Source of the DNA: Prevotella sp.
Lineage (GTDB): Bacteria > Bacteroidota > Bacteroidia > Bacteroidales > Bacteroidaceae
Assembly (NCBI GenBank): GCA_017960525.1
Contig: JAGCZA010000021.1
Coordinates: 1 to 47,712 of the forward strand
Direction: 5' to 3'
DNA: 47,712 nt
Shown one piece after another: positions 1,857-42,494 of the stretch. Numbering within the stretch: the first letter of the stretch is position 1; the number at the start of each line of letters is the position of its first letter. The position numbers were made by a program, and so were the translations under genes. Below the pieces are notes generated by a model. It saw nothing but the letters and a program-made list of their open reading frames with translations. It made no database searches and was not told the origin of the DNA.

Positions 1857-1888
1857 TTTCGTCATTTCATTTTTTTTATGTAAATTTG
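1857..1888 (+). promoter_or_regulatory. Bacteroidetes-type promoter of the pectate lyase gene
   Basis: TTTC (1857-1860), 20 bases, then TAAATTTG (1881-1888), which matches the TTTG-N20-TAnnTTTG pattern of the primary Bacteroidetes sigma factor. The transcript would start near 1895, giving an untranslated leader of about 205 bases that contains the whole repeat array at 1946-2030. Confidence 0.6.
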
Positions 1889-1945: not shown

Positions 1946-2030
1946 AAATTGGTTCGTCCTAACTAAGAGTTTGGTTCGTCCAAACTGGTGGTTTGGTTCG
2001 TCCAAAGTAGGAGTTTGGTTCGTCCAAATT
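1946..2030. repeat. array 1: four 19-base palindromes at 22-base pitch
   Basis: Units begin at 1946, 1968, 1990 and 2012. The consensus is AGTTTGGTTCGTCCAAACT: 7-base arms AGTTTGG/CCAAACT around TTCGT. The 3-base spacers are AAG, GGT and AGG. The first unit is degenerate and the second is perfect. The array ends 69 bases before the pectate lyase ATG and lies inside its predicted 5' leader. In RNA each unit could fold into a 7-bp hairpin with a 5-base loop; in DNA each could be a two-fold operator, with 22 bases placing all units on about the same helical face. The same unit occurs reversed at 14409-14493. Confidence 0.9.
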
Positions 2031-2099: not shown

Positions 2100-5000
2100 A
2101 TGAAACCAACTAAAAGACTATTCATGGCCCTGCTGATGATGGCAGGCATTGTGGTTGCTGATGCACAGCAACTGGCATTCCCCGGCGCACAGGGCTGGGG
2201 GCGTTTCGCCACTGGCGGACGTACAGGTAAAGTTTACCATGTGACTAACCTCAAGGACTCTGGCACAGGTTCGCTCCGCGACGCCGTGAGCCAGCCCAAC
2301 CGCATCGTTGTCTTCGATGTGGCGGGTGTCATCAACATCAGTTCGCGTATTGTTTTTTCCAATAACCTCTATGTGGCCGGACAGACGGCTCCTGGCGAGG
2401 GCATCACCGTCTATGGCGACGGTGTGTCGTTCTCAGGCGCAAACAACATCATCGTGCGCTATATGCGCTTCCGCATGGGCCATAATGGCAGTAGCGGCAA
2501 AGACTGTGCAGGCATCGCCAATGGCGCCAATATGATTTTCGACCACTGCTCCTTCGCCTGGGGACTCGACGAGACCTTCTCCATCAACCCTGACGGCAAG
2601 GGCACCACGCCGCAGAACATCACCCTGCAGAACAGTATCGTGGGCCAGGGACTGATGACCCACTCGGCTGGCGGATTGATGCAGACCGACTATATCTCGC
2701 TCATCGGCAACTTCCTTTGCGACAACTCCACCCGTAACTTCAAAATCAAGGGCATCAACCAGTATGCCAACAATATTGTCTATAACTGGAGCAATGGCGC
2801 CTACATTATGGGCGGCGACTCTGAGGGCAAAAGTTACGTGAACATCCAGTCGAACCTCTTCATCAACGGCCCGGCAAAGGGTGGCGCAGCCTTCACCGGC
2901 GGCAATGCCGACTTCCATTGCTACGGCGACGACAACTGGCAGGACCGCAACATCGACGGAATTTTCGACCCCTCCATCATCACCGACTATAACGCCGCCA
3001 CACGCGAGTCGGAGCCTTATCCCTATCCTGAATTGCAACTGAACCCAGGCGACAAACTTTTGGAGACCAATCTTCCCACAGTAGGCGCGTCGCTGCCCTA
3101 CCGTGATATGGTGGACTGCTATATGGTGGACGAAGTGATGTCGTATGGCAAGAGTGGCGCCCTCATCAGCAATGAGGAGTCGCTCATCTATGGTGCCCCC
3201 TCCACCTGGAATGTTTATGCCGGTGTGAAGAAACAAGACTCCGACGGCGACGGAATGCCCGACGAGTGGGAAATAGACAATGGCACCGACCCGGCAAAGG
3301 ACGATGCGATGGTGATTGACTCAAATGGCTATGCCAATATCGAGAACTACATCAACGAGATTACTGTGGACGACCGCGACTACTTCCTGCGCGCTCCAGT
3401 CGGCCTGACCCTCGACAAGGCCACCACTACCACGCTGGCCGTCAGTTGGCGTGACTATACCTACGACGAGACAGGCTTTATCGTGGAGATAAAGAAGGAC
3501 GGCCAGTGGACTGTGGCAGGCGAGACGGCGGCTAACACCACGTCGTTCACCATCACCGGCCTGGAGCCTGGCACGAAATACGCGGTGCGCGTGAAAGCCG
3601 ACTCCCACATCGACAGTTCCGACTATACGCCTGAGACAGATATGTCTACGCGGCCATTGGAGGTTGGCGTCATCGACCTGGACAGTTACCTCCCTGATTA
3701 CACTTGGACGGGCGGAGACTATGACAATGCACAGGCCGAGGGGAAGAACGTGCTGCTGGCCCCCACCGAAGGCCAGACGTTGACGCTGGCAGAGGCCACC
3801 CAGCCCGCCGCCGTCGTCTATAAGGAGCCTCTGGCCCTCACCGTGGGTGGGGCGGCCATCGGCGGCACCGCATCGGTGAACAAGGGTGGCGCAGGCACGC
3901 TGACGCTTACTGGTAGCAACACCTATACGGGTGCTACTGTGTTGCACGACGGCGTGCTGGAGTTTTCGACGCTGAAGAACGGCGGCTCGGCATCGGCCAT
4001 TGGCAGTAGCGTGGAGTTCGCCCAGAACTGGATTGCCGACGGCGGTACCTACCGCTACACGGGCAGCGCCACTACGACCAATCGCTCGATGAAACTCTCG
4101 TCCACTTCTACGCTCGACATCAAGTCTGCCGTAGTCACTATGAATGGTGTCATTGAGGGCAGCGATGCCAATGCTAACTTCATCATCGACGGTGCTGGCC
4201 AGATTACCGTGGGCACGACAGGATTCTTTGGCTACAAGGGGGCCACCGTGCTGAAGGGCAGCACTCTCTATCTGAGCACTACTGACATCTCTAAGGCTGG
4301 CATCGGTTCCTCTTCGAAACTCGTTATGCAGGGCGGAACGTTGAGGACCAAGGGCGAGTCAAGCGGCTACGAGACCTATTCCTTCCCCATCGAAGTGACT
4401 GAGGGCACTACCTCGGTGTTTGCCCCCAACCGCAACTGCTACATCAACAACAAGGTGACGGGTGCAGGAAACATACAACTCAACATCCCTTATCTGCGCG
4501 AATATGTGCAGGGCGACTGGAGCGGCTTTACCGGGCGGTTCATCGCTAACGGCATATCGAGCGACAAGCGCGGTTCGCTGCTACTGCTCGACAAGTCGCC
4601 GAACCTGAACAAGGCCATTATCGAACTGAAAGGCAACGCCAACCTGTGCTATTGGAGCACCAGCGGCAACCTGACCATCGGCGGTATTTCGGGCACCAGC
4701 ACTACCTATATCAACGGTTCCAGCAAGCAGACCGACGGCTTCACCTGCACGTGGACGGTAGGTTCGGCCAACAGCGACGAGACCTTCGCCGGCAAGATCA
4801 ATAACTGGTCGTGCTCAGGCAGCGGCCATACCGGCACTGTAAACATCGTGAAGACCGGCACTGGTCTCTGGCGACTCACTGGCAGCAACGACTATAAAGG
4901 CACTACGAAAGTGAACGCAGGTACGCTCATCGTCAACGGCACGAATAGTGGTACGGGAGCCGTCACCGTGAGTGCCGACGCCACCCTGGCTGGTAAGGGT

Positions 5001-6089
5001 AGTGTGGCTGGAGCCGTCACCGTCAATGGCACTATCCAGGCTGGCGACACCCTCATCAACGGCTCGAAACTGACATTGAAGAGCACCCTGAGAGTGAACA
5101 AGAGCGGCATAGTGAACATTCCTGCTACGGCCACCAAATGCAACACCCTGGCCGTTACTGGCAACATCACCTTGGTCGAAGGGGCTACGCTGATGATTGC
5201 CAATGGTGTGCTGTCAGAGGCTCCTGCCGACGGCACATCCTACAAGGTGTTCACTCCTGGAGGAACCATTACGGGAACCTTTGCCGAGATCCTGCCCGCC
5301 ACGCCTGGTGAGGGGTTGATGTGGGACACCAGCGAACTTTACACCACCGGCGTGCTTAAAGTGACAAGAGATGGTGAGGACCCTAACCCAGACGACCCCG
5401 ATCCCGACCCCGACCCGCAGCCCGTGGAGATGGAGACCAAGACGGCGCTCATCTCTTGGGACAACGTGACGGCCAGTAGCGTTGACAATAGTGAGTACAA
5501 CAACCAGGTGACTGGCAACGACGGCACCTACGCTGAGGGCTTCAAGATGGTGCTCACCGGCAATCTGGAGAAGACCTATTCAGCAGCCGACAAAATCAGC
5601 GTCGTCTTTGGGGAAGAGAACATCAGCCGCACCACTATCAAGACAAGCAATGGTGCTATGAACACCGTCTATCTGCCGAAGGGGGCCGTGGCCACGAAGA
5701 TGACCATCTGGAGTTACACCAACTTCACCAAGGATACTGAACCGCGCACCAGTTATTGGGCCAGCGTGGGAGGCACCGACTACACCGTGGAGAATGCCAC
5801 CATCCTGCAGGCAAAGAAGAACACCAGTAACCCCGACCACGTCAGTTTCAGCCTGCCCGCTCTGAGCAAGGTGGAGTTCAAGAACAGCGGCGAACAGCAG
5901 TGCATCGTCCTGGCCATCGACTACGTCTATCCCATCAAGGGTGACGTCAATGCTGACGGACTGGTGAACCACGCCGACCTGGTTAGGCTCGTCGAAATCG
6001 TTGGCAGCAACGGCGAGGCCGATGTCAATGACGACGGAAAAACTGACGTGGGCGACATCACAGCAATACTTGGAATCCTATCTCGGTAG
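2100..6089 (+). CDS. secreted pectate lyase-like multidomain protein with dockerin-type tail
   Basis: 1329 residues with a signal peptide (about 1-22, ending ADAQQ). Residues about 24-420 form a right-handed beta-helix resembling family 1 polysaccharide lyases (AFPGAQGWGRFATGGRTGKVYHVTNLKDSGTGSLRDAV, then the pectate-lyase-like IFDHCSFAWGLDE). This domain would cleave pectin or a related uronic polymer outside the cell. DSDGDGMPDEWE is a calcium-binding thrombospondin-type-3-like linker. A fibronectin type III domain follows (about 435-520), then autotransporter-associated beta-strand repeats (GGAGTLTLTGSNTYTGATVLHDG, TGTGLWRLTGSNDYKGTTKVNAG). A low-complexity linker rich in Asp-Pro leads to a further beta domain and a C-terminal dockerin-like pair (GDVNADGLVNHADLV, ADVNDDGKTDVGDIT). 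No susC/susD pair is adjacent. The lyase assignment is good; specificity is inferred. Confidence 0.82.
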   Translation: MKPTKRLFMALLMMAGIVVADAQQLAFPGAQGWGRFATGGRTGKVYHVTNLKDSGTGSLRDAVSQPNRIVVFDVAGVINISSRIVFSNNLYVAGQTAPGEGITVYGDGVSFSGANNIIVRYMRFRMGHNGSSGKDCAGIANGANMIFDHCSFAWGLDETFSINPDGKGTTPQNITLQNSIVGQGLMTHSAGGLMQTDYISLIGNFLCDNSTRNFKIKGINQYANNIVYNWSNGAYIMGGDSEGKSYVNIQSNLFINGPAKGGAAFTGGNADFHCYGDDNWQDRNIDGIFDPSIITDYNAATRESEPYPYPELQLNPGDKLLETNLPTVGASLPYRDMVDCYMVDEVMSYGKSGALISNEESLIYGAPSTWNVYAGVKKQDSDGDGMPDEWEIDNGTDPAKDDAMVIDSNGYANIENYINEITVDDRDYFLRAPVGLTLDKATTTTLAVSWRDYTYDETGFIVEIKKDGQWTVAGETAANTTSFTITGLEPGTKYAVRVKADSHIDSSDYTPETDMSTRPLEVGVIDLDSYLPDYTWTGGDYDNAQAEGKNVLLAPTEGQTLTLAEATQPAAVVYKEPLALTVGGAAIGGTASVNKGGAGTLTLTGSNTYTGATVLHDGVLEFSTLKNGGSASAIGSSVEFAQNWIADGGTYRYTGSATTTNRSMKLSSTSTLDIKSAVVTMNGVIEGSDANANFIIDGAGQITVGTTGFFGYKGATVLKGSTLYLSTTDISKAGIGSSSKLVMQGGTLRTKGESSGYETYSFPIEVTEGTTSVFAPNRNCYINNKVTGAGNIQLNIPYLREYVQGDWSGFTGRFIANGISSDKRGSLLLLDKSPNLNKAIIELKGNANLCYWSTSGNLTIGGISGTSTTYINGSSKQTDGFTCTWTVGSANSDETFAGKINNWSCSGSGHTGTVNIVKTGTGLWRLTGSNDYKGTTKVNAGTLIVNGTNSGTGAVTVSADATLAGKGSVAGAVTVNGTIQAGDTLINGSKLTLKSTLRVNKSGIVNIPATATKCNTLAVTGNITLVEGATLMIANGVLSEAPADGTSYKVFTPGGTITGTFAEILPATPGEGLMWDTSELYTTGVLKVTRDGEDPNPDDPDPDPDPQPVEMETKTALISWDNVTASSVDNSEYNNQVTGNDGTYAEGFKMVLTGNLEKTYSAADKISVVFGEENISRTTIKTSNGAMNTVYLPKGAVATKMTIWSYTNFTKDTEPRTSYWASVGGTDYTVENATILQAKKNTSNPDHVSFSLPALSKVEFKNSGEQQCIVLAIDYVYPIKGDVNADGLVNHADLVRLVEIVGSNGEADVNDDGKTDVGDITAILGILSR

Positions 6090-14408: not shown

Positions 14409-14493
14409 AGTTTGGACGAACCAAACTCCCACTTTGGACGAACCAAACTCATAGTTTGGACGAACCAAACTCCCACTTTGGACGAACCAAATT
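14409..14493. repeat. array 2: four 19-base palindromes at 22-base pitch (inverse of array 1)
   Basis: Units begin at 14409, 14431, 14453 and 14475. The consensus is AGTTTGGACGAACCAAACT, the exact reverse complement of the array 1 unit. The spacers are CCC, CAT and CCC. Units 1 and 3 are perfect; units 2 and 4 begin ACTTTGG. The array fills most of the 129-base gap between the barrel gene and the next secreted-protein gene, ending 26 bases before its ATG. I see no convincing promoter in this gap, so it is probably transcribed inside an operon. Confidence 0.92.
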
Positions 14494-22259: not shown

Positions 22260-24737
22260 ATGAAACAATCCATTACCATTACCATTACCCTGCTGCTGCT
22301 GGTGGTGCTCACCCCGGCCACGGCGCAGACGGTTCATGTTTACAGAGACGAAAACGGCGACGATTGGCATTATACGTCTGAAAACAACGTCACAACTCTG
22401 ATAAAATATTACACCTCCCGTGCAGACGTAGACGTGACGACGCCCACCCAGATTGACGGCCACATCTTGACGGCAATTGGCAATGGGGCGTTCAAAGATA
22501 AAAACTCGCTGAAGAACCTGACGATTTCCGAAGGCGTTGAGAGCATCGGTGACAATGCTTGCACAAACTGTATAAATCTGGCCAGCGTCAATCTCCCCAG
22601 CAGCGTCAGGAGCATCGGTAATGAAGCATTTAACTTGTGCAAAAGCCTGACAAGCATCGAGATTCCTGATGGCGTAGAGGAGATAGCAGATGGCACATTC
22701 TCTGGCTGCGCAAGCCTGGCCAGCGTCACCATCCCCGGCTCTGTGAAAACCATTGGCAAAATGGCTTTCCTTGGCTGTACGGCCCTGAAGAGCATCACCA
22801 TCCCGAACAGCGTCACCAGCATAGGAGAAAATGCTTTTTATCATAGGGACAAGGCAGACCACTGTGCTCCGGATAATGTCTATTTTGCCGGAACGTTTGG
22901 CGAGTGGAAAAGCGTGACAAGAGGCTCACAAGCCTTTGGTAATTATGATTACTATAAAATAGAAATCTTCCACTGGCTTTGCACGGTCACCTTCGACGTG
23001 CAGGGCCACGGCACGGCACCGGCTCCCCTGGTGTTATATTCGAATATCGGCACCCTGACCGAGCCGGAAGCCCCTGTGGCCAAGGGCTACGAGTTCGGCG
23101 GCTGGTACACATTTGCCGACTGTAGGGATGGTTCCAAAGTCGATTTCGGCTACGGAGTTACATACGACCGCACACTCTACGCCAAGTGGACACCGCTGGA
23201 AAACACCATCACCTTCAACCTGGGCGGGAAAGGCACACCCATCCCCTCCCAGACGGTGGCATCGGGCAACCTGGTGGCAGAACCCCCCGTCCAGTTCGAC
23301 GGCGATGAAGGCATAGAGGGGTGGTACACCGACGCCGACAAGACCCAGCCCTACGACTTCACCACACCAGCCGACGAGACGATGACCCTCTACGCCAAGT
23401 GGGCAGCAGCAGGCACGGCCACCATCGCCACCACCGGCGACGGCACCGCCGTGCTCACCGACACCAAAGGCCGGCCCTACACCGAGGGCAAAATCATGCC
23501 CGGCGTCTACACGCTCACCGTCACCCCCGCCGAGGGCAAGACTTTCACGGGCCTCTATAAGCGACTGGCCCGCGACGGCGGCACATCGCCCATGCCTGAA
23601 AACATAGCCGGCAGCTCTCAGAAGACCTTCACCCTCGACCTGACCGACTACGACGCCGAAATCAGCGTCAACTTCACCGACTCACCCATCGTCACCGTCA
23701 CCACCACCACCGACGGCATCAGCACGGCAGGCAGCTGGACACTCACCGACGGGCACAGCCGCACCTACACAGACGGCAGCCCGGTTTACCCCGTAGGCGA
23801 TATAACAACAGAAGCCGACAAAATGACGCTGGAAGTCACGCCAGGCACGGACGCAAAATGGGCCATGATTATCGTGAACAACGGCAAAAAACAGCAAGTC
23901 GACCCAGATTCACACAGCTACACCTTCACGCCTAATGGCAGCATCGACATCGAGTTGTTCTTCTACCACAAAGACCTCGGCATGATAGAAATAGCCGATA
24001 ACTCAAATGCCGATGTCACAGATAAAATCGTAGTCAACGAAGGCCAGAGACGCATGGTGAAGCTCACGGGGCGCACACTCTTCCGCGACGGCTCGTGGAA
24101 CACCATCTACCTGCCCTTCGACCTCGACATTGAAGGCAGCGCCCTCGACAAGAAGGGCGTCACCCTGATGGAGCTCGACACCGAAAACTCCTACTTCGGC
24201 AACGGCACCCTCCACCTGAACTTCATCGATGCCGGGAAAACCATCAAGGCAAGCAAACCCTACATCATCAAGTGGACATCATCAAGCTACAACATCACCA
24301 GCCCCGCATTTGTCGGCGTCACCATCAAAGGCTTCGAGGGCACACCCAGCAGCAGAGACGAAGCCGTCTGGTTCGTAGGCCATTACTCCGCTGAAACCTA
24401 CAACAACGAAAAGGACATCCTCTACCTCGGAGCCGACAACACCCTCTACTACCCCGACGGCGTAGTCACCATCGGCCCCTGCCGCGCCCACTTCGAGCTG
24501 CAAAACGGCCTCACCGTCGGCACCGCCGACGGCAACGTGCGCACCTTCAGCCTCAACTTCGGCGACGCCGACGAAACGGACATACGCGACCTGCACAACG
24601 CATCCGACGCCTCCACACATCCGTCCACTCCCTCCGCCTGGTACACCCTCGACGGCCGCCGCCTCTCCACCCAGCCCGCCGCCAAGGGCCTCTACATCCA
24701 CCAAGGCCGCAAAGTGGCGGTGAAGAGAAAATCGTGA
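22260..24737 (+). CDS. secreted BspA-type leucine-rich-repeat protein with InlB B-type repeats
   Basis: 825 residues with a signal peptide (about 1-22, TPATAQ). Residues about 65-215 are tandem BspA/LRR_5 repeats (LKNLTISEGVESIGDNACTNCINLASVNLPSSVRSIGNEAFNLCKSLTSIEIPDGVEEIADGTFSGC). Two Listeria-Bacteroides InlB B-type repeats follow (VTFDVQGHGTAPAPLVLYSNIGT...GWYTFADCRDG...LYAKW and ITFNLGGKGTPIPSQTV...GWYTDADKTQPY...LYAKW, about 238-385). The remainder is beta-rich and ends AWYTLDGRRLSTQPAAKGLYIHQGRKVAVKRKS, a tail similar to that of the protein at 17221-21306. Such proteins bind host or neighbour-cell surfaces. It diverges from the HU-like gene. Its stop codon is the first TGA of a TGACATCG repeat run. 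Confidence 0.85.
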   Translation: MKQSITITITLLLLVVLTPATAQTVHVYRDENGDDWHYTSENNVTTLIKYYTSRADVDVTTPTQIDGHILTAIGNGAFKDKNSLKNLTISEGVESIGDNACTNCINLASVNLPSSVRSIGNEAFNLCKSLTSIEIPDGVEEIADGTFSGCASLASVTIPGSVKTIGKMAFLGCTALKSITIPNSVTSIGENAFYHRDKADHCAPDNVYFAGTFGEWKSVTRGSQAFGNYDYYKIEIFHWLCTVTFDVQGHGTAPAPLVLYSNIGTLTEPEAPVAKGYEFGGWYTFADCRDGSKVDFGYGVTYDRTLYAKWTPLENTITFNLGGKGTPIPSQTVASGNLVAEPPVQFDGDEGIEGWYTDADKTQPYDFTTPADETMTLYAKWAAAGTATIATTGDGTAVLTDTKGRPYTEGKIMPGVYTLTVTPAEGKTFTGLYKRLARDGGTSPMPENIAGSSQKTFTLDLTDYDAEISVNFTDSPIVTVTTTTDGISTAGSWTLTDGHSRTYTDGSPVYPVGDITTEADKMTLEVTPGTDAKWAMIIVNNGKKQQVDPDSHSYTFTPNGSIDIELFFYHKDLGMIEIADNSNADVTDKIVVNEGQRRMVKLTGRTLFRDGSWNTIYLPFDLDIEGSALDKKGVTLMELDTENSYFGNGTLHLNFIDAGKTIKASKPYIIKWTSSSYNITSPAFVGVTIKGFEGTPSSRDEAVWFVGHYSAETYNNEKDILYLGADNTLYYPDGVVTIGPCRAHFELQNGLTVGTADGNVRTFSLNFGDADETDIRDLHNASDASTHPSTPSAWYTLDGRRLSTQPAAKGLYIHQGRKVAVKRKS

Positions 24738-24767
24738 CAAGTGACATCGTGACATCGTGACATTAAG
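24735..24767. repeat. TGACATCG tandem repeat, copy 1
   Basis: Starts at the TGA stop of the leucine-rich-repeat gene: TGACAAG, TGACATCG, TGACATCG, TGACATTAAG. The same string recurs inverted at 24865-24898 and direct at 32397-32428, each ending in the TGACATTAAG form. Confidence 0.85.
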
Positions 24768-24864
24768 CACCTTTCGAAGTGCAAAAAATAGGTTTATTAT
24801 TATATAGATTATATATATAATAATAAAAATTCCACTCCCCCATTGTTCCGCATATACGGAACAC
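24768..24864. other. intergenic core between inverted TGACATCG repeats
   Basis: Holds a partly palindromic run around CTTTCGAAGTG next to copy 1, an AT-only stretch around 24790-24830, and a perfect 6-bp hairpin GTTCCG-CATATA-CGGAAC next to copy 2. No gene is visible. The inverted repeats plus internal palindromes could terminate transcription from the left or form a protein-binding cruciform. Confidence 0.5.
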
Positions 24865-24898
24865 CTTAATGTCACGATGTCACGGTGTCACGATGTCA
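24865..24898. repeat. TGACATCG tandem repeat, copy 2 (inverted)
   Basis: The complement reads TGACATCG, TGACACCG, TGACATCG, TGACATTAAG. Together with copy 1 it forms an inverted repeat around a 97-base core; together with copy 3 it brackets 24.9-32.4 kb. Confidence 0.85.
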
Positions 24899-30075: not shown

Positions 30076-32399
30076 ACAGACTGATAGCACTGAACACGAA
30101 GCATTTCGCCGACAAGCAGAAGAACCATCGGGGATATGCAGAGACACAGACTGGCGAGCAACTCGACGAGTTGCTCCGCCAAGAGTGGCTTCGCCGCGAT
30201 GTGGCCGACATACGTGCCGGACGGGAGGAAAAGAAGGACTGGCTGCCATTCATCTGCCCTCACTACACGGCGTTCCGTGACAACCATCGGGCACAGGACA
30301 GCATCATCCCCGAGGCATTCACCTTTATGACGTGCGTGGATATTGACAACCCCAAACTGGTGCGCGGAGCCTTTGAGAAAGCCTTGCAGGTGAACAACGA
30401 CGAACTGTCGGAGTGGCACGATATGGTGCTGCGTGAGGCTTATTCGGCTCGTGGCAAGGGCCACATCTACATCCGCATTCCGAAAGGTATGACCATCGAA
30501 GAAGCACAGCGTGCCTTCTGTCAGGAGATTGGCTTCAATGCAGACGAACTGCTCGACTCGTCGTGCTTTACACCAGAACGCTTCATCTATGTGACGGGCA
30601 TCGACCAGGAAATCTTCCGCTCCACCCACTGGCTCGAACCCATCGAGGGCGAAGAACTGGAGGAGCGACGCGAGGCCTATCTGATGAGAGGACTCGACGT
30701 GGACGGGAGAAAACTGCAGGCCCCGCCAAGCACCGCAGCAGGACGCGAGGCCGCCAAAGACAAATTCCCCCAAGAGTTCAAAGGACTGGCCTACGATGCC
30801 ATCGTCGCCGAGTATTGGCGCAGAACGGGCGGCATACCTTCAGAGGGAGAGCGCAACAAGCGGCTGCACCAGTTGGCGGCCAACCTGAGGGCCATCTGCG
30901 ACAACCAGGAAGAGTGGCTGCTGGAGGTGATGCCCCGGCTGGGACTGTCGGAACTGGAGATGAAAGCCATCGTCCACTCAGCCTGCAAGGAACCCACAAA
31001 GGGCTCGCGAATCATCGACCAGATTGTGAAGGCAATGACAGTTGAAAGAGACGACACCCACCTGGTAGAGCCAAACGACTACGACGGCGACAACACCCCA
31101 CTCGGAGCACAGATAGCAAAGTTGCTGCCCATAGGACTCAAAGAAAGCCTCGCAGGCGTACCGCCAACCATGCACATGCCCGTGCTCTGCGCTGTGCTCC
31201 CGCTGGCTGCCGCCTACGCCGACCAAGTGGAGGTGTGCTATTGCGACGGAGAGAGGCAGAAACTCGGGATGATGTCAATCATCTACGGCGAACAGGCATC
31301 AGGCAAGTCGGTCTGCAAACATGCCGTCAACATCTGGAAGCAACAACTCGACGAAGAAGACGCACTCGCACGAAAGCGCGAAGACGAGTGGAAAGAGCGC
31401 AAAAAAGGCCGCAAAGCCAGCGAGAAAGCCCCAGAAGACCCAAAAGTGCTCATCCGCACGGTGCCAGTCACCGTATCGTGCTCAACGCTACTGAAACGTC
31501 TGAAAAATTCGTGCGGACACACCCTCTACTCATTCGGAGAGGAACTGGACACGCTCAGGAAGACCAACGGAGCCGGCTCGTGGAGTTCAAAGTACGACAT
31601 CTACCGACTGGCCTTCGACCCGCTCGACTCAGAGTGGGGCCAGGACTACAACAGCGACCAGGCCGAGTCGGGCGTGGTGAAGGTGGCCTACAACTGGACG
31701 ATGCTGGGCACCAGCGGCGCTGTGCGCAAGTGCTTCAAGACCGACAACATCGAAAACGGGCTCTCAAGCCGCATACTGCTGGCAGAAATGCCCGACACGG
31801 CCTTTGCCAAAATGCCACGCTACGGCCGACGCTCACCCGACGATGAAGCCAGGATACAGCAAGCCGTCACACGACTGCGCTCCTGCAGTGGCTACATAGA
31901 CACACCGCGACTGCGCAAAGCCATCGACCAGTGGGTAGAGGAAAAGCGAATAGACGCCCTGAAAGACATCGACCACGTGAAAGACACCTATCGACGACGG
32001 GCAGCCGTCATCGGCTTCCGCTGCGGAGTCATACACCACCTGCTGACGCTGGGCGACAGACAGACCGCTACCTTCAACTCGAAAGAGACAAAAGCCACAG
32101 TCGACTTCGCCCTGATGATGGCCGAATACTGCCTGAAACAACAAATCAAGACCTTCGGCGACGTGCTGCAAAACCAGTATGCCGACTCACTCACAAAAAG
32201 CCAGCGCACAGGTGCAAACAACTACATCTTCGACCAGTTGCCACCCACCTTCACAGCCGACGACCTGGCCGCACTGAAGCAAGGCGCACTGCCACGCAAC
32301 TCCATCATCAAAATCATCTCGCGCTGGAACCGCGACGGATGGGTGGAGAAAGCAGACAACAGGCGGTGGAGAAAAGTACCGGCAAGCCAAAAAAAGTGA
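30069..32399 (+). CDS. BT4734/VirE-N-like primase-ATPase protein with DUF3987-type C-terminus
   Basis: 776 residues. The start at 30069 (MVNRLIALNTKHFADKQKN) has an AAGGAGG site 12 bases upstream; the frame stays open to 29742, but that part overlaps the previous gene in another frame. Residues about 30-200 resemble the BT4734/BF3469 N-terminal domain (FTFMTCVDIDNPKLV, GKGHIYIRIPKGMTIEEAQ, SSCFTPERFIYVTG), thought to be primase-related. A helical linker leads to a P-loop ATPase region: GEQASGKS at 407-414 is a Walker A motif, and a DUF3987/helicase-like body follows (TLLKRLKNSCGHTLYSFGEELDTLRK). Such proteins occur in mobile or phage-satellite islands of Bacteroidales, often near HU-like and amidase genes. 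Its TGA begins TGACATCG repeat copy 3. The exact biochemical role is not known. Confidence 0.78.
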   Translation: MVNRLIALNTKHFADKQKNHRGYAETQTGEQLDELLRQEWLRRDVADIRAGREEKKDWLPFICPHYTAFRDNHRAQDSIIPEAFTFMTCVDIDNPKLVRGAFEKALQVNNDELSEWHDMVLREAYSARGKGHIYIRIPKGMTIEEAQRAFCQEIGFNADELLDSSCFTPERFIYVTGIDQEIFRSTHWLEPIEGEELEERREAYLMRGLDVDGRKLQAPPSTAAGREAAKDKFPQEFKGLAYDAIVAEYWRRTGGIPSEGERNKRLHQLAANLRAICDNQEEWLLEVMPRLGLSELEMKAIVHSACKEPTKGSRIIDQIVKAMTVERDDTHLVEPNDYDGDNTPLGAQIAKLLPIGLKESLAGVPPTMHMPVLCAVLPLAAAYADQVEVCYCDGERQKLGMMSIIYGEQASGKSVCKHAVNIWKQQLDEEDALARKREDEWKERKKGRKASEKAPEDPKVLIRTVPVTVSCSTLLKRLKNSCGHTLYSFGEELDTLRKTNGAGSWSSKYDIYRLAFDPLDSEWGQDYNSDQAESGVVKVAYNWTMLGTSGAVRKCFKTDNIENGLSSRILLAEMPDTAFAKMPRYGRRSPDDEARIQQAVTRLRSCSGYIDTPRLRKAIDQWVEEKRIDALKDIDHVKDTYRRRAAVIGFRCGVIHHLLTLGDRQTATFNSKETKATVDFALMMAEYCLKQQIKTFGDVLQNQYADSLTKSQRTGANNYIFDQLPPTFTADDLAALKQGALPRNSIIKIISRWNRDGWVEKADNRRWRKVPASQKK

Positions 32400-32428
32400 C
32401 AAGTGACAAGTGACATCGTGACATTAAG
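32397..32428. repeat. TGACATCG tandem repeat, copy 3
   Basis: Starts at the TGA stop of the primase-like gene: TGACAAG, TGACAAG, TGACATCG, TGACATTAAG, ending 12 bases before the DUF5675 ATG. Direct relative to copy 1, inverted relative to copy 2. Confidence 0.85.
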
Positions 32429-32868: not shown

Positions 32869-32984
32869 AAAACTCCCCTCCCTTGTAGGGGAGGGGTTAG
32901 GGGTGGGGTCAGTGCCTTTTTTGAGGCTGATGGAATATTACAGACCCCACCCCCTGCCCCTCCCCTTGAAGGGAGGGGAGTTTT
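32869..32984. repeat. REP-like GC-rich inverted repeat, copy A
   Basis: Two 42-base arms, 32869-32910 and 32943-32984, are near-perfect inverted copies: AAAACTCCCCTCCCTTGTAG... against its complement ending GAGGGGAGTTTT. Each arm also holds a small internal palindrome (CCCCTCCCTT..AGGGGAGGGG), and the two arms enclose 32 unique bases. Related copies are at 38171-38208 (one arm) and 47484-47586 (two arms, opposite layout). Confidence 0.85.
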
Positions 32985-33022
32985 GTCAGCAGCGATGCAC
33001 CGAGGGAACGACTGACACACAT

Positions 33023-40696: not shown

Positions 40697-42415
40697 ATGT
40701 ATAGCAACAAGGAAAACGTGAACATACTGACGGCGCTGCTCGTGGCCCACGGGGTGCGGCGGGCTGTGGTGTGCCCCGGCAGCCGCAACGCCCCCATCGT
40801 GCACAATCTGGACGAATGTCCGCACATTTCGTGCCTGCCCGTGACCGACGAGCGCTCGGCGGGCTTCTTCGCCCTGGGTCTGGCACAGGCTACCGACGAG
40901 CCGGTGGCGGTCTGCGTCACGTCGGGCACGGCGCTGCTCAATCTGCTGCCTGCCGTGGCCGAAGCCTGCCACCAGCACGTGTCGCTCATCGTGGTATCTG
41001 CCGACCGACCAGCCGCCTGGATTGGGCAGATGGACGGACAGACGCTGCACCAACCAGGCGCCCTGGAGCCGTGGGTGGCAAAAAGCGTGACGCTGCCAGA
41101 ACCAGACAGGGCCAGTGAGGCCGAGGCGTCCACCGCCCGATGGCATTGCAACCGACTGGTGAACGAGGCGTTGCTCGAAGCCTGGCAGGACCATCGGCCC
41201 TGCGTACACATCAATGTGCCCATCAGCGAGCCATTGTTCCAATTCACTACTGGAAAGTTGTCCGCCGAGCGCGTGATTCACCGATACGCCCCGCCTGCCG
41301 ACTACAGTTGCCTCTGCGCCCCGCTGCTGGACGACCTGACGAGCGCGCAACGCCCGATGGTGGTCTTCGGACAGATGGCCCCAGACCACTTCGACAAAAA
41401 AGTTGCCGACTATCTGTTCAGCCACGTCATTGTGCTGCACGAGCAGTTGGCAGCCTTTCCCTCGGTGAGCCACTTCGACGAGGTGCTGGCCGCCGCAGGC
41501 AATTCAGAAGATGCCATTCAGGAACTGCTGCCCGACTTTGTGCTTTACGTGGGCGGTACGCTGGTGAGCAAGCGCCTGAAAGCGTTCCTGCGACGTGCCG
41601 CCAATGCCCACGTCTGGCGCGTCAGCCCAACTGGCACCGTGGAAGACACGTTCCAAAACCTGCGCAGCATAGTGACGGGCGACGCCGAGTTCACTTTGAA
41701 CGCCCTGAGCGAAAAACTTGCCAGACAGCATTGGAGCAAAGGCTTGGCCTATCGCCGCCAATGGCTGAAACTGCTGCAACAGGCCAGCAATCTGGCACAG
41801 ACCTACGCCCCACCCTACTCGCAGATGGCTGCCGTGAAGCAGTTGGAGCAACGACTGGAGCGGCTGTCCGACCAGGAAATGCCCGTCGTGCACTATGCCA
41901 ACAGTTCGGCCATACGCCTGGCCAACATCTACGCCCGTCACCACGTGTGGTGCAATCGTGGCGTGAACGGCATTGAGGGCAGCGTGAGCACAGCCGCCGG
42001 CTTTGCAGCCGCCACCGACGACGACCGTATGGTGGTTTGCGTGGCGGGCGACCTGAGTTTCTTCTACGACCAAAACGCCCTGTGGAACCAGAATCTGAGG
42101 GGAAATCTGCGCATCCTGCTACTGAACAACGGCAAGGGCGCCATCTTCGACCTGCTGCCAGGGCTGGAGCAAAGTCCCGCCCGCGACCGACTGGTGAGCG
42201 CCTGCCACCAGACCAGCGCCGAGGGCATCTGCCGACAGAACGGCATCGGCTATCTTGCCGCCCGCAATGCCGACGAGTTGGAGCAAGGTCTGGACTGGCT
42301 GCTCAGCCCAGGCGGCGACCGCCCTACCCTGCTCGAAGTGTTCACCAGCGCGCAAGCCGATACCAACACCTACGCAGACTACTACAAGTGGATATGCAAC
42401 GGAATTGATAGTTAG
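40697..42415 (+). CDS. menD: 2-succinyl-5-enolpyruvyl-6-hydroxy-3-cyclohexene-1-carboxylate synthase MenD
   Basis: 572 residues, the expected MenD length. It is thiamine-diphosphate dependent: an N-terminal PYR domain (VVCPGSRNAPIVHN, the catalytic-Glu region TDERSAGFFALGLAQAT, VTSGTALLNLLPAVAEAC), a middle domain, and a C-terminal PP domain with the cofactor motif GDLSFFYDQNALWNQNLRGNLRILLLNN. The enzyme joins 2-oxoglutarate and isochorismate in menaquinone synthesis, in the cytoplasm. Other men genes are not adjacent; the usual menF/menB neighbours are missing, so the pathway must continue elsewhere. Its TAG lies inside the first unit of repeat array 3. Confidence 0.95.
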   Translation: MYSNKENVNILTALLVAHGVRRAVVCPGSRNAPIVHNLDECPHISCLPVTDERSAGFFALGLAQATDEPVAVCVTSGTALLNLLPAVAEACHQHVSLIVVSADRPAAWIGQMDGQTLHQPGALEPWVAKSVTLPEPDRASEAEASTARWHCNRLVNEALLEAWQDHRPCVHINVPISEPLFQFTTGKLSAERVIHRYAPPADYSCLCAPLLDDLTSAQRPMVVFGQMAPDHFDKKVADYLFSHVIVLHEQLAAFPSVSHFDEVLAAAGNSEDAIQELLPDFVLYVGGTLVSKRLKAFLRRAANAHVWRVSPTGTVEDTFQNLRSIVTGDAEFTLNALSEKLARQHWSKGLAYRRQWLKLLQQASNLAQTYAPPYSQMAAVKQLEQRLERLSDQEMPVVHYANSSAIRLANIYARHHVWCNRGVNGIEGSVSTAAGFAAATDDDRMVVCVAGDLSFFYDQNALWNQNLRGNLRILLLNNGKGAIFDLLPGLEQSPARDRLVSACHQTSAEGICRQNGIGYLAARNADELEQGLDWLLSPGGDRPTLLEVFTSAQADTNTYADYYKWICNGIDS

Positions 42416-42494
42416 AAGGTATATAACTCATAGTTAGAAGGTATATAACTACCAGTTAGAAGGTATATAACTCATAGTTTGAACGGTTGTAATT
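42410..42494. repeat. array 3: four 19-base units at 22-base pitch, different palindrome
   Basis: Units begin at 42410, 42432, 42454 and 42476. The first three are identical, AGTTAGAAGGTATATAACT (arms AGTTA/TAACT); the fourth, AGTTTGAACGGTTGTAATT, is divergent. Spacers are CAT, ACC and CAT, the same set as in arrays 1 and 2 when read on the C-rich strand. The first unit contains the menD stop codon (TAG at 42413-42415). It lies before the promoter of the next gene, so it is the 3' end of the menD transcript. Confidence 0.92.

Follow-up and report, generated by a model that had tools for sequence, protein, structure and literature searches.

Tandem palindrome arrays with a constant 22-bp pitch form a dispersed, lineage-specific family in Prevotella and may be iteron-like

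An origin of the iteron type is recognised by tandem repeats, at least three in number and some 20 bp long, spaced by helical turns. The lambda O protein binds its four iterons, and these lie inside the O gene itself. RepA_N iterons are described, in the part of PMC7145576 drawn on here, as semi-palindromic direct repeats. Among dispersed palindromes of the REP type, one class (CGTC) has no dedicated transposase according to the sections of PMC3733652 used here. In Bacteroidales, the BrickBuilt MITE of Porphyromonas gingivalis is built of a 23-nt unit repeated without spacer in 1 to 22.8 copies, carries IS5-like terminal repeats and occupies 19 loci (passages of PMC4596501).

Here we describe palindrome arrays detected in a 47,712-nt stretch of a Prevotella genome, referred to as the window. 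Array 1 consists of four 19-base units on the forward strand, located at 1946..1964 (AAATTGGTTCGTCCTAACT, with degenerate outer arm), 1968..1986 (AGTTTGGTTCGTCCAAACT, with perfect 7-base arms), 1990..2008 and 2012..2030 (outer arm end CCAAATT). Arm complementarity of units 1-4 is 4/7, 7/7, 5/7 and 6/7, respectively. Unit starts at 1946, 1968, 1990 and 2012 bear out the exact 22-base pitch reported in the first-pass annotation, and the two further arrays that it had noticed are also present. Array 2 (14409..14493, reverse strand), with four units of the array 1 type, lies between a DUF6850 gene and the next gene. Array 3 (42410..42494, reverse strand) contains three units of a second type (AGTTATATACCTTCTAACT) and a degenerate fourth one; its unit 1 includes the stop codon (42413-42415) of a TPP-enzyme gene (40697-42415). 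The window arrays are not due to chance: six overlapping three-unit sites were counted in the window and none in 20 letter shuffles of it. Covariance model R1, constructed from 59 varied arrays, matches array 1 at 1968-2030 with E 3.6e-9, this stretch being itself among the rows used for building the model.

Array 1 is flanked by a HAD-type hydrolase gene on one side and by a gene that is pectate lyase-like in its N-terminal part on the other (2100..6089, forward strand). The latter resembles the solved pectate lyase 9buj_A (E 6.2e-34), and its Pfam matches comprise fn3 and repeat domains only. Upstream of the array, TAAATTTG (1881..1888, forward strand) fits TAnnTTTG, the Bacteroidetes-type -7 promoter element; a sigma-70 promoter scan found nothing. 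With this possible -7 box, array 1 would fall in the 5' leader, and such a location in the lyase mRNA is plausible.

Other repeats also occur in the window. Two opposed sets of GTGACATC-type short repeats (24729-24763 and 24869-24898) flank an AT-rich stretch; the pair, spanning 24729-24898, is situated upstream of a type I methylase/specificity fusion gene and resembles an iteron-flanked origin. At about 32394-32423, a single set of the GTGACATC type separates a DUF5675 gene from one that matches DUF3987 weakly. Positions 32880-32985 contain a different inverted repeat, of the type GGGGAGGGG/CCCCTCCCC, and a repeat similar to it by eye is present in the cobB linker of genome G022 (L146).

In the host genome (3.97 Mb), the two-unit pattern AGTT-N11-AACT-N3-AGTT-N11-AACT has 338 matches per strand with up to two mismatches, compared with 2 for the reversed-pattern control, and 242 with one mismatch, compared with 0. 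A unit-specific pattern gives 304 matches (173 + 131) and none in the control. After the match lists had been merged, at least 119 separate places, on 65 contigs, were seen to carry more than one unit. Among 49 distinct arrays of this genome, those of three units (20) and four units (22) prevail, next to 6 with five units and a single one with six, outer units being accepted at a loose threshold of 11/19 letters. All units share the same orientation in 45 of the 49. Successive type-A cores in the loci read from this genome are spaced by 22 in 99 of 101 pairs, the remaining two spacings being 29 and 44. A search with free gap length gave 127 matches; all 100 of those listed have a total length of 29 or 51 and a 5-base centre, with a step of 22 in 40 rows and 44 in 60. 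Unit number thus varies and pitch does not. The first-pass annotation had held that the absence of other arrays, or freely varying pitch and copy number, would speak against a family; many arrays with constant pitch were found, and only unit number is variable, so that its "always four units" fails and its "always 22 bases" stands. Spacers are more varied than the small set (CCC, CAT, ACC, CCT, CTT) that it had proposed, and the outermost arms are often, by eye, the most degenerate, a tendency which it had worded as a rule. Another palindromic repeat of this genome (GCCGTAACC...GGTTACGGC) adjoins an array at L006 2888-2980, and the same letters appear in one array unit (L204).

Constancy of pitch is also apparent in other genomes. 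Ninety loci that had been selected by protein and in part overlap (305 kb) were scanned at pitches 16-35, and three-unit palindrome arrays were found 9 times at 22 and not at any other pitch. In a second scan, which covered 12 pitches, all 9 hits were at 22, and shuffles gave none. The 9 hits fall on 7 different places, in several of which units are without AGTT, and 7 of the 9 are cobB loci or loci fetched by a query holding a translated array, only L178 and L264 being free of such ascertainment. Since units in the pitch-scan loci include TATTCCCACGTTGGGAATA and TGTTTCCCCCAAGGAAACA, AGTT is not universal. What nearly all units have in common is NRTTY...RAAYN, with NRTTYNN as loose half-site.

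Scanning of other genomes for three perfect units retrieved at least 110 stretches, nearly all from Bacteroidales; the 22-base geometry thus occurs in other members of this order as well. Before arm matches were counted, we removed three stretches from other phyla (L032, L072, L135), two that looked like chance matches (L016, L017) and repeated, overlapping retrievals of a single place. L033, labelled as a non-Bacteroidales MAG, was retained because its flanks match a Bacteroides locus. One of the removed stretches, L072 (4460-4588), contains a five-unit array of similar geometry in Bifidobacterium, beside a gene that by eye may encode an integrase.

Model R1 was applied with strict filters, with 89 candidates scored per genome and both strands counted. 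Of 36 genomes sampled from the genus, 18 gave arrays, that of the host among them, and of 24 sampled from other genera none did. The number of matches ranges from 0 to at least 89 among congeners and is highest in the host genome. In G006 the simple pattern is uninformative, as it gives 31 matches in both the search and the reversed control; model R1 finds 41 there (both strands). Half-sites are much more similar between arrays of one genome (0.886, 81 pairs) than between genomes (0.547, 2845 pairs), and none of 2000 label permutations reached the within-genome value. Identical 19-mers are shared by 44 of the 81 within-genome pairs and by 35 of the 2845 between-genome pairs; this analysis covers 77 arrays from L031-L110, in 41 genomes. 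Each lineage has its own unit letters, and pitch, palindromic arms and the loose half-site are shared.

More than 100 dispersed palindromic sites in the host genome might be taken for chromosome-organising sites comparable to those of Noc or ParB. Some units (ATTCCC..GGGAAT) do resemble Noc/ParB sites. On the other hand, model R1 with its strict filters finds no array in 18 of the 36 genus genomes, and counts vary widely between genomes, so we consider this explanation improbable.

Further, we examined the location of arrays relative to genes. Of 108 arrays, some of them from the host genome, 49 lie between genes in tandem, 20 between divergent and 20 between convergent genes, and 19 inside ORFs (simple ORF calls, some of them spurious). 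The corresponding numbers for the 49 host-genome arrays are 27, 11, 5 and 3, with three more at contig edges. In the host-genome loci the median distance of an array is 28 bp to a stop and 121 bp to a start, and many arrays are located just after stop codons. No target-gene class or regulon is visible among the neighbours in either set.

The most common neighbours of arrays are genes for BT4734_N-VapE primase-helicases (9 loci) and DUF6078 proteins (9), with a large-protein family close behind (8). The part of PMC5862659 seen by us lists BT4734 among the archaeo-eukaryotic primase families. In a neighbour count from which duplicates and host-genome loci had first been dropped (136 loci, 881 kb), 9 loci contain a BT4734_N/VapE gene matched from its start and beginning 240, 241, 241, 244, 248, 248, 249, 265 and 279 bp from the array; only two further VapE hits were obtained, both partial. 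DUF6078 was hit in 10 of the 136 loci, with starts 94-335 bp from the array in 7, and four loci carry VapE and DUF6078 on opposite sides of the array.

Helically phased palindromes with a common half-site, and their near-constant distance to VapE starts in the nine loci, would suit operators of a global oligomeric transcription regulator. Such a role is nevertheless quite unlikely, given the lack of a target-gene class, the convergent and in-ORF sites and match numbers ranging from 0 to at least 89 between congeners. The idea that array 1 holds operators of the lyase gene is not supported either: arrays occupy tandem, divergent and convergent regions and the inside of ORFs, and in several relatives one stands in frame within cobB.

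Palindromic arms covary across species: 88.1% of cells are paired, and 262 double changes were counted, compared with 121 in shuffles. Since 7-pair hairpins are possible and many arrays closely follow stop codons, it could be thought that arrays fold, within mRNA leaders and tails, into rows of RNA hairpins that control translation, decay or termination. Covariation across species would, however, also be expected of half-sites of one protein. What an RNA hairpin requires is covariation specific to each unit, and this is not observed among units that differ in both arms: the match to the own right arm is 0.617 and that to the arm of another unit 0.619 (n=420). A paired test using opposite-side halves only (125 arrays) likewise gives no difference between own and swapped arms at positions 5, 6 and 9, and a slight deficit at 7 (p 0.03). 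At positions 8/12, pairing inside units is less frequent than pairing across units of one array (0.177 vs 0.274, p 1e-5, 125 arrays); half-sites acting independently do not account for such an effect at the level of the unit.

Because own arms match no better than swapped ones, arms behave as interchangeable half-sites of one recogniser. Successive half-sites point in opposite directions and follow each other at 10-12 bp (mean about 11), which places them on one helical face and suggests a line of protein dimers as the natural reading. The constant pitch despite sequence turnover, along with the equal match of own and swapped arms, is better accommodated by phased protein sites than by RNA hairpins, for which an exact 22-base pitch would be unnecessary. 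Arrays between divergent genes and inside coding sequence also speak against hairpins in transcripts; a scan for terminators gave no such site at array 1, and an Rfam search gave no match at the window arrays or at arrays of 16 other loci. We regard the hairpin explanation as decidedly unlikely. Of the two mechanisms proposed in the first-pass annotation, sites for an oligomeric protein on one helical face thus fit better and serial hairpins worse, and the sequence comparisons favour protein-bound double-stranded DNA.

Arrays within the cobB gene illustrate, at a single place, how unit letters differ by lineage. In L068, L112 and L139 an in-frame array separates the N-terminal domain from GATase_3. 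The cobB protein was searched for in 60 genomes and hit in 16, two of these hits being weak (G016, G029). By eye, an array is present in G018, G025, G013 and, in degenerate form, the host genome, each with different units, and it is missing in G034, G020, G032, G009, G015 and the outgroup G050. In the remaining cases another repeat occupies the array place (G022), the join is shortened and frame-shifted (G035) or the copy is diverged (G006). In G033, cobB is split, where others carry the array, by a divergent 386-aa ORF with an MPDHLHA (HUH) motif (L154 277-1437). The best family match of this ORF is a REP-associated transposase model, below threshold (E 0.0029). The cobB pattern may have arisen through insertions that occurred more than once or through an old array whose units changed in concert. 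Elsewhere arrays appear to be inherited in place: L090 and L091 differ by exactly one unit, L059 and L109 by a few changes, and L033 and L061 by none.

High copy number, intergenic location, lineage specificity, palindromic structure and patchy occurrence between congeners are features that would be expected of a selfish REP/REPIN-like repeat without host function, copied by a RAYT-type (Y1) transposase. The HUH-motif ORF at the cobB array place of one relative is consistent with this, as is the single locus (L178) of 30 with a RAYT-like or Y1 gene that has an array nearby. Nevertheless, co-occurrence is poor. Y1_Tnp (PF01797) gave no hit in 8 of the 18 array-bearing genomes, and no array was detected near Y1 genes in 19 fetched stretches, the one positive stretch of the batch being a VapE locus. 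The Y1 gene of the host genome is weak and not near an array, and neither the host genome nor G018 contains the RAYT-like protein found in L154. Neither is there a conserved GTAG or CGTC tag at one end of the arrays, whose conserved ends are AGTT/AACT or, more widely, NRTTY. This explanation is rather unlikely, and neither co-occurrence nor proximity supports a RAYT/Y1 transposase as mobiliser.

Arrays were also inspected for marks of insertion. Flanking direct repeats score 4.80, compared with 4.58 in shuffles, a value equalled in 15 of 200 shuffles, and thus give no sign of target-site duplication. No sharp element ends were found at arrays, and the host-genome arrays that were profiled share no long flanks, showing weak terminal similarity only. 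Inverted repeats are present on both sides in 13 array loci, with or without VapE, and in those aligned the inverted repeats carry a second short repeat.

We next turn to replication genes. Arrays are located inside O-like replication genes in two of four viral-contig matches: L252 10465-11349 (PF04492, E 4e-11) and L253 257-1153 (PHROG O-like, E 5.7e-6, with helix-turn-helix domains as Pfam hits). In the viral contigs no VapE homologue was confirmed, one stretch matching a peptide pattern. Model R1 finds an array with E 0.1 or below in three of 30 PF08800 loci (L264, L258, L262), with one weak match among these; the other 27 show none with this model, and most VapE genes have no array. G008 has two model R1 matches, one per strand of a single place, which lies upstream of the sole PF08800 gene in that genome. 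No BT4734_N or VapE homologue was detectable in the host genome, the empty answer of one of the searches carrying little weight. PF08800 gave no hit in 5 of the 18 array-bearing genomes, the host and four congeners, by which BT4734/VapE is rejected as a requirement for arrays in these five; its closeness to the array in the nine loci is strong all the same. The window arrays and most others are not beside or inside a replication gene. Geometry as in the phage O-gene arrays, together with VapE proximity in some relatives, fits iteron-type sites; the array-bearing genomes with no VapE hit and the VapE loci with no array speak against them.

Our best, still tentative, explanation is that the arrays constitute a dispersed, lineage-specific, iteron-like DNA lattice with fixed 22-bp pitch, the copy in the lyase leader being incidental. 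Array 1 would represent one copy of a family of tandem 19-base palindromes, mostly with three or four units, and dimers of one DNA-binding protein would line up on successive units, by analogy with lambda O. In some relatives the array would sit in the control or origin region of a BT4734_N-VapE gene, often with DUF6078 opposite. Other copies, that of the lyase leader included, may have spread in the manner of REPs or MITEs by some enzyme. We infer protein binding, replication initiation as original role and movement of copies alike. Any effect of array 1 on lyase expression would be incidental.

A narrower variant would see the arrays as dispersed replication iterons, that is, origin sites of VapE/BT4734-type mobile modules that spread as solitary copies and could titrate the initiator of incoming relatives or pair with it. 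We consider it unlikely. If it were true, more than 100 chromosomal iterons would amount to a form of incompatibility immunity, in which unit letters turn over with the initiator and the lattice stays fixed.

Returning to the iteron-like lattice, more than 100 scattered copies with letters that differ by species and a constant 22-base spacing give array 1 the appearance of a docking site for some DNA-binding protein, perhaps one involved in replication, and not that of a single-gene switch. Geometry that is kept while letters are lost across the genus, at more than 100 places in one genome, suggests that the specificity of a protein evolves together with its sites genome-wide. Finding the binding protein would tell whether gut Bacteroidales possess scattered sites of replication, a nucleoid system or a palindromic-repeat family independent of RAYTs, and the near-constant place of the array before some VapE genes provides a concrete locus for testing.

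The arrays can finally be compared with known systems. In the open-licence literature searched, the parts available to us contain no description of such arrays. Two partly seen sources may leave room for earlier sightings: PMC4596501 mentions 22-nt tandem repeats of P. gingivalis W83, not located, which may or may not be of the present kind, and PMC8040213 reports 250 palindromic candidate RNAs of human microbiomes. BrickBuilt, as presented in the passages of PMC4596501, is likewise a dispersed element of Bacteroidales with short tandem repeats of similar length within an inverted-repeat element. Unlike its 23-nt repeats, which come with a leader and a tail terminated by IS5-like repeats, our arrays have a 22-bp pitch and mostly 3-6 palindromic units, and no IS5-like terminal repeats were found at them.

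With REPs, BIMEs and REPINs the arrays share short palindromes in high copy number that are dispersed, mostly intergenic, lineage-specific and at times located in genes. They differ in being an exact tandem 22-bp lattice with half-sites exchanging between units, in having no GTAG/CGTC tag and in the lack of a linked Y1 transposase among the loci searched; a Y1/RAYT gene with the repeat on its two sides, which the CGTC class can do without, was not found. Iteron clusters and lambda-type origins differ in another respect: more than 100 copies are present here in one chromosome, most of them not beside a replication gene, and no initiator was identified in the host genome. Their likeness to the arrays concerns the structure itself, as both have three or more tandem palindromic repeats of about 20 bp at helical-turn pitch, in helix phase, which in known origins and in some of our loci lie beside or inside a replication gene.
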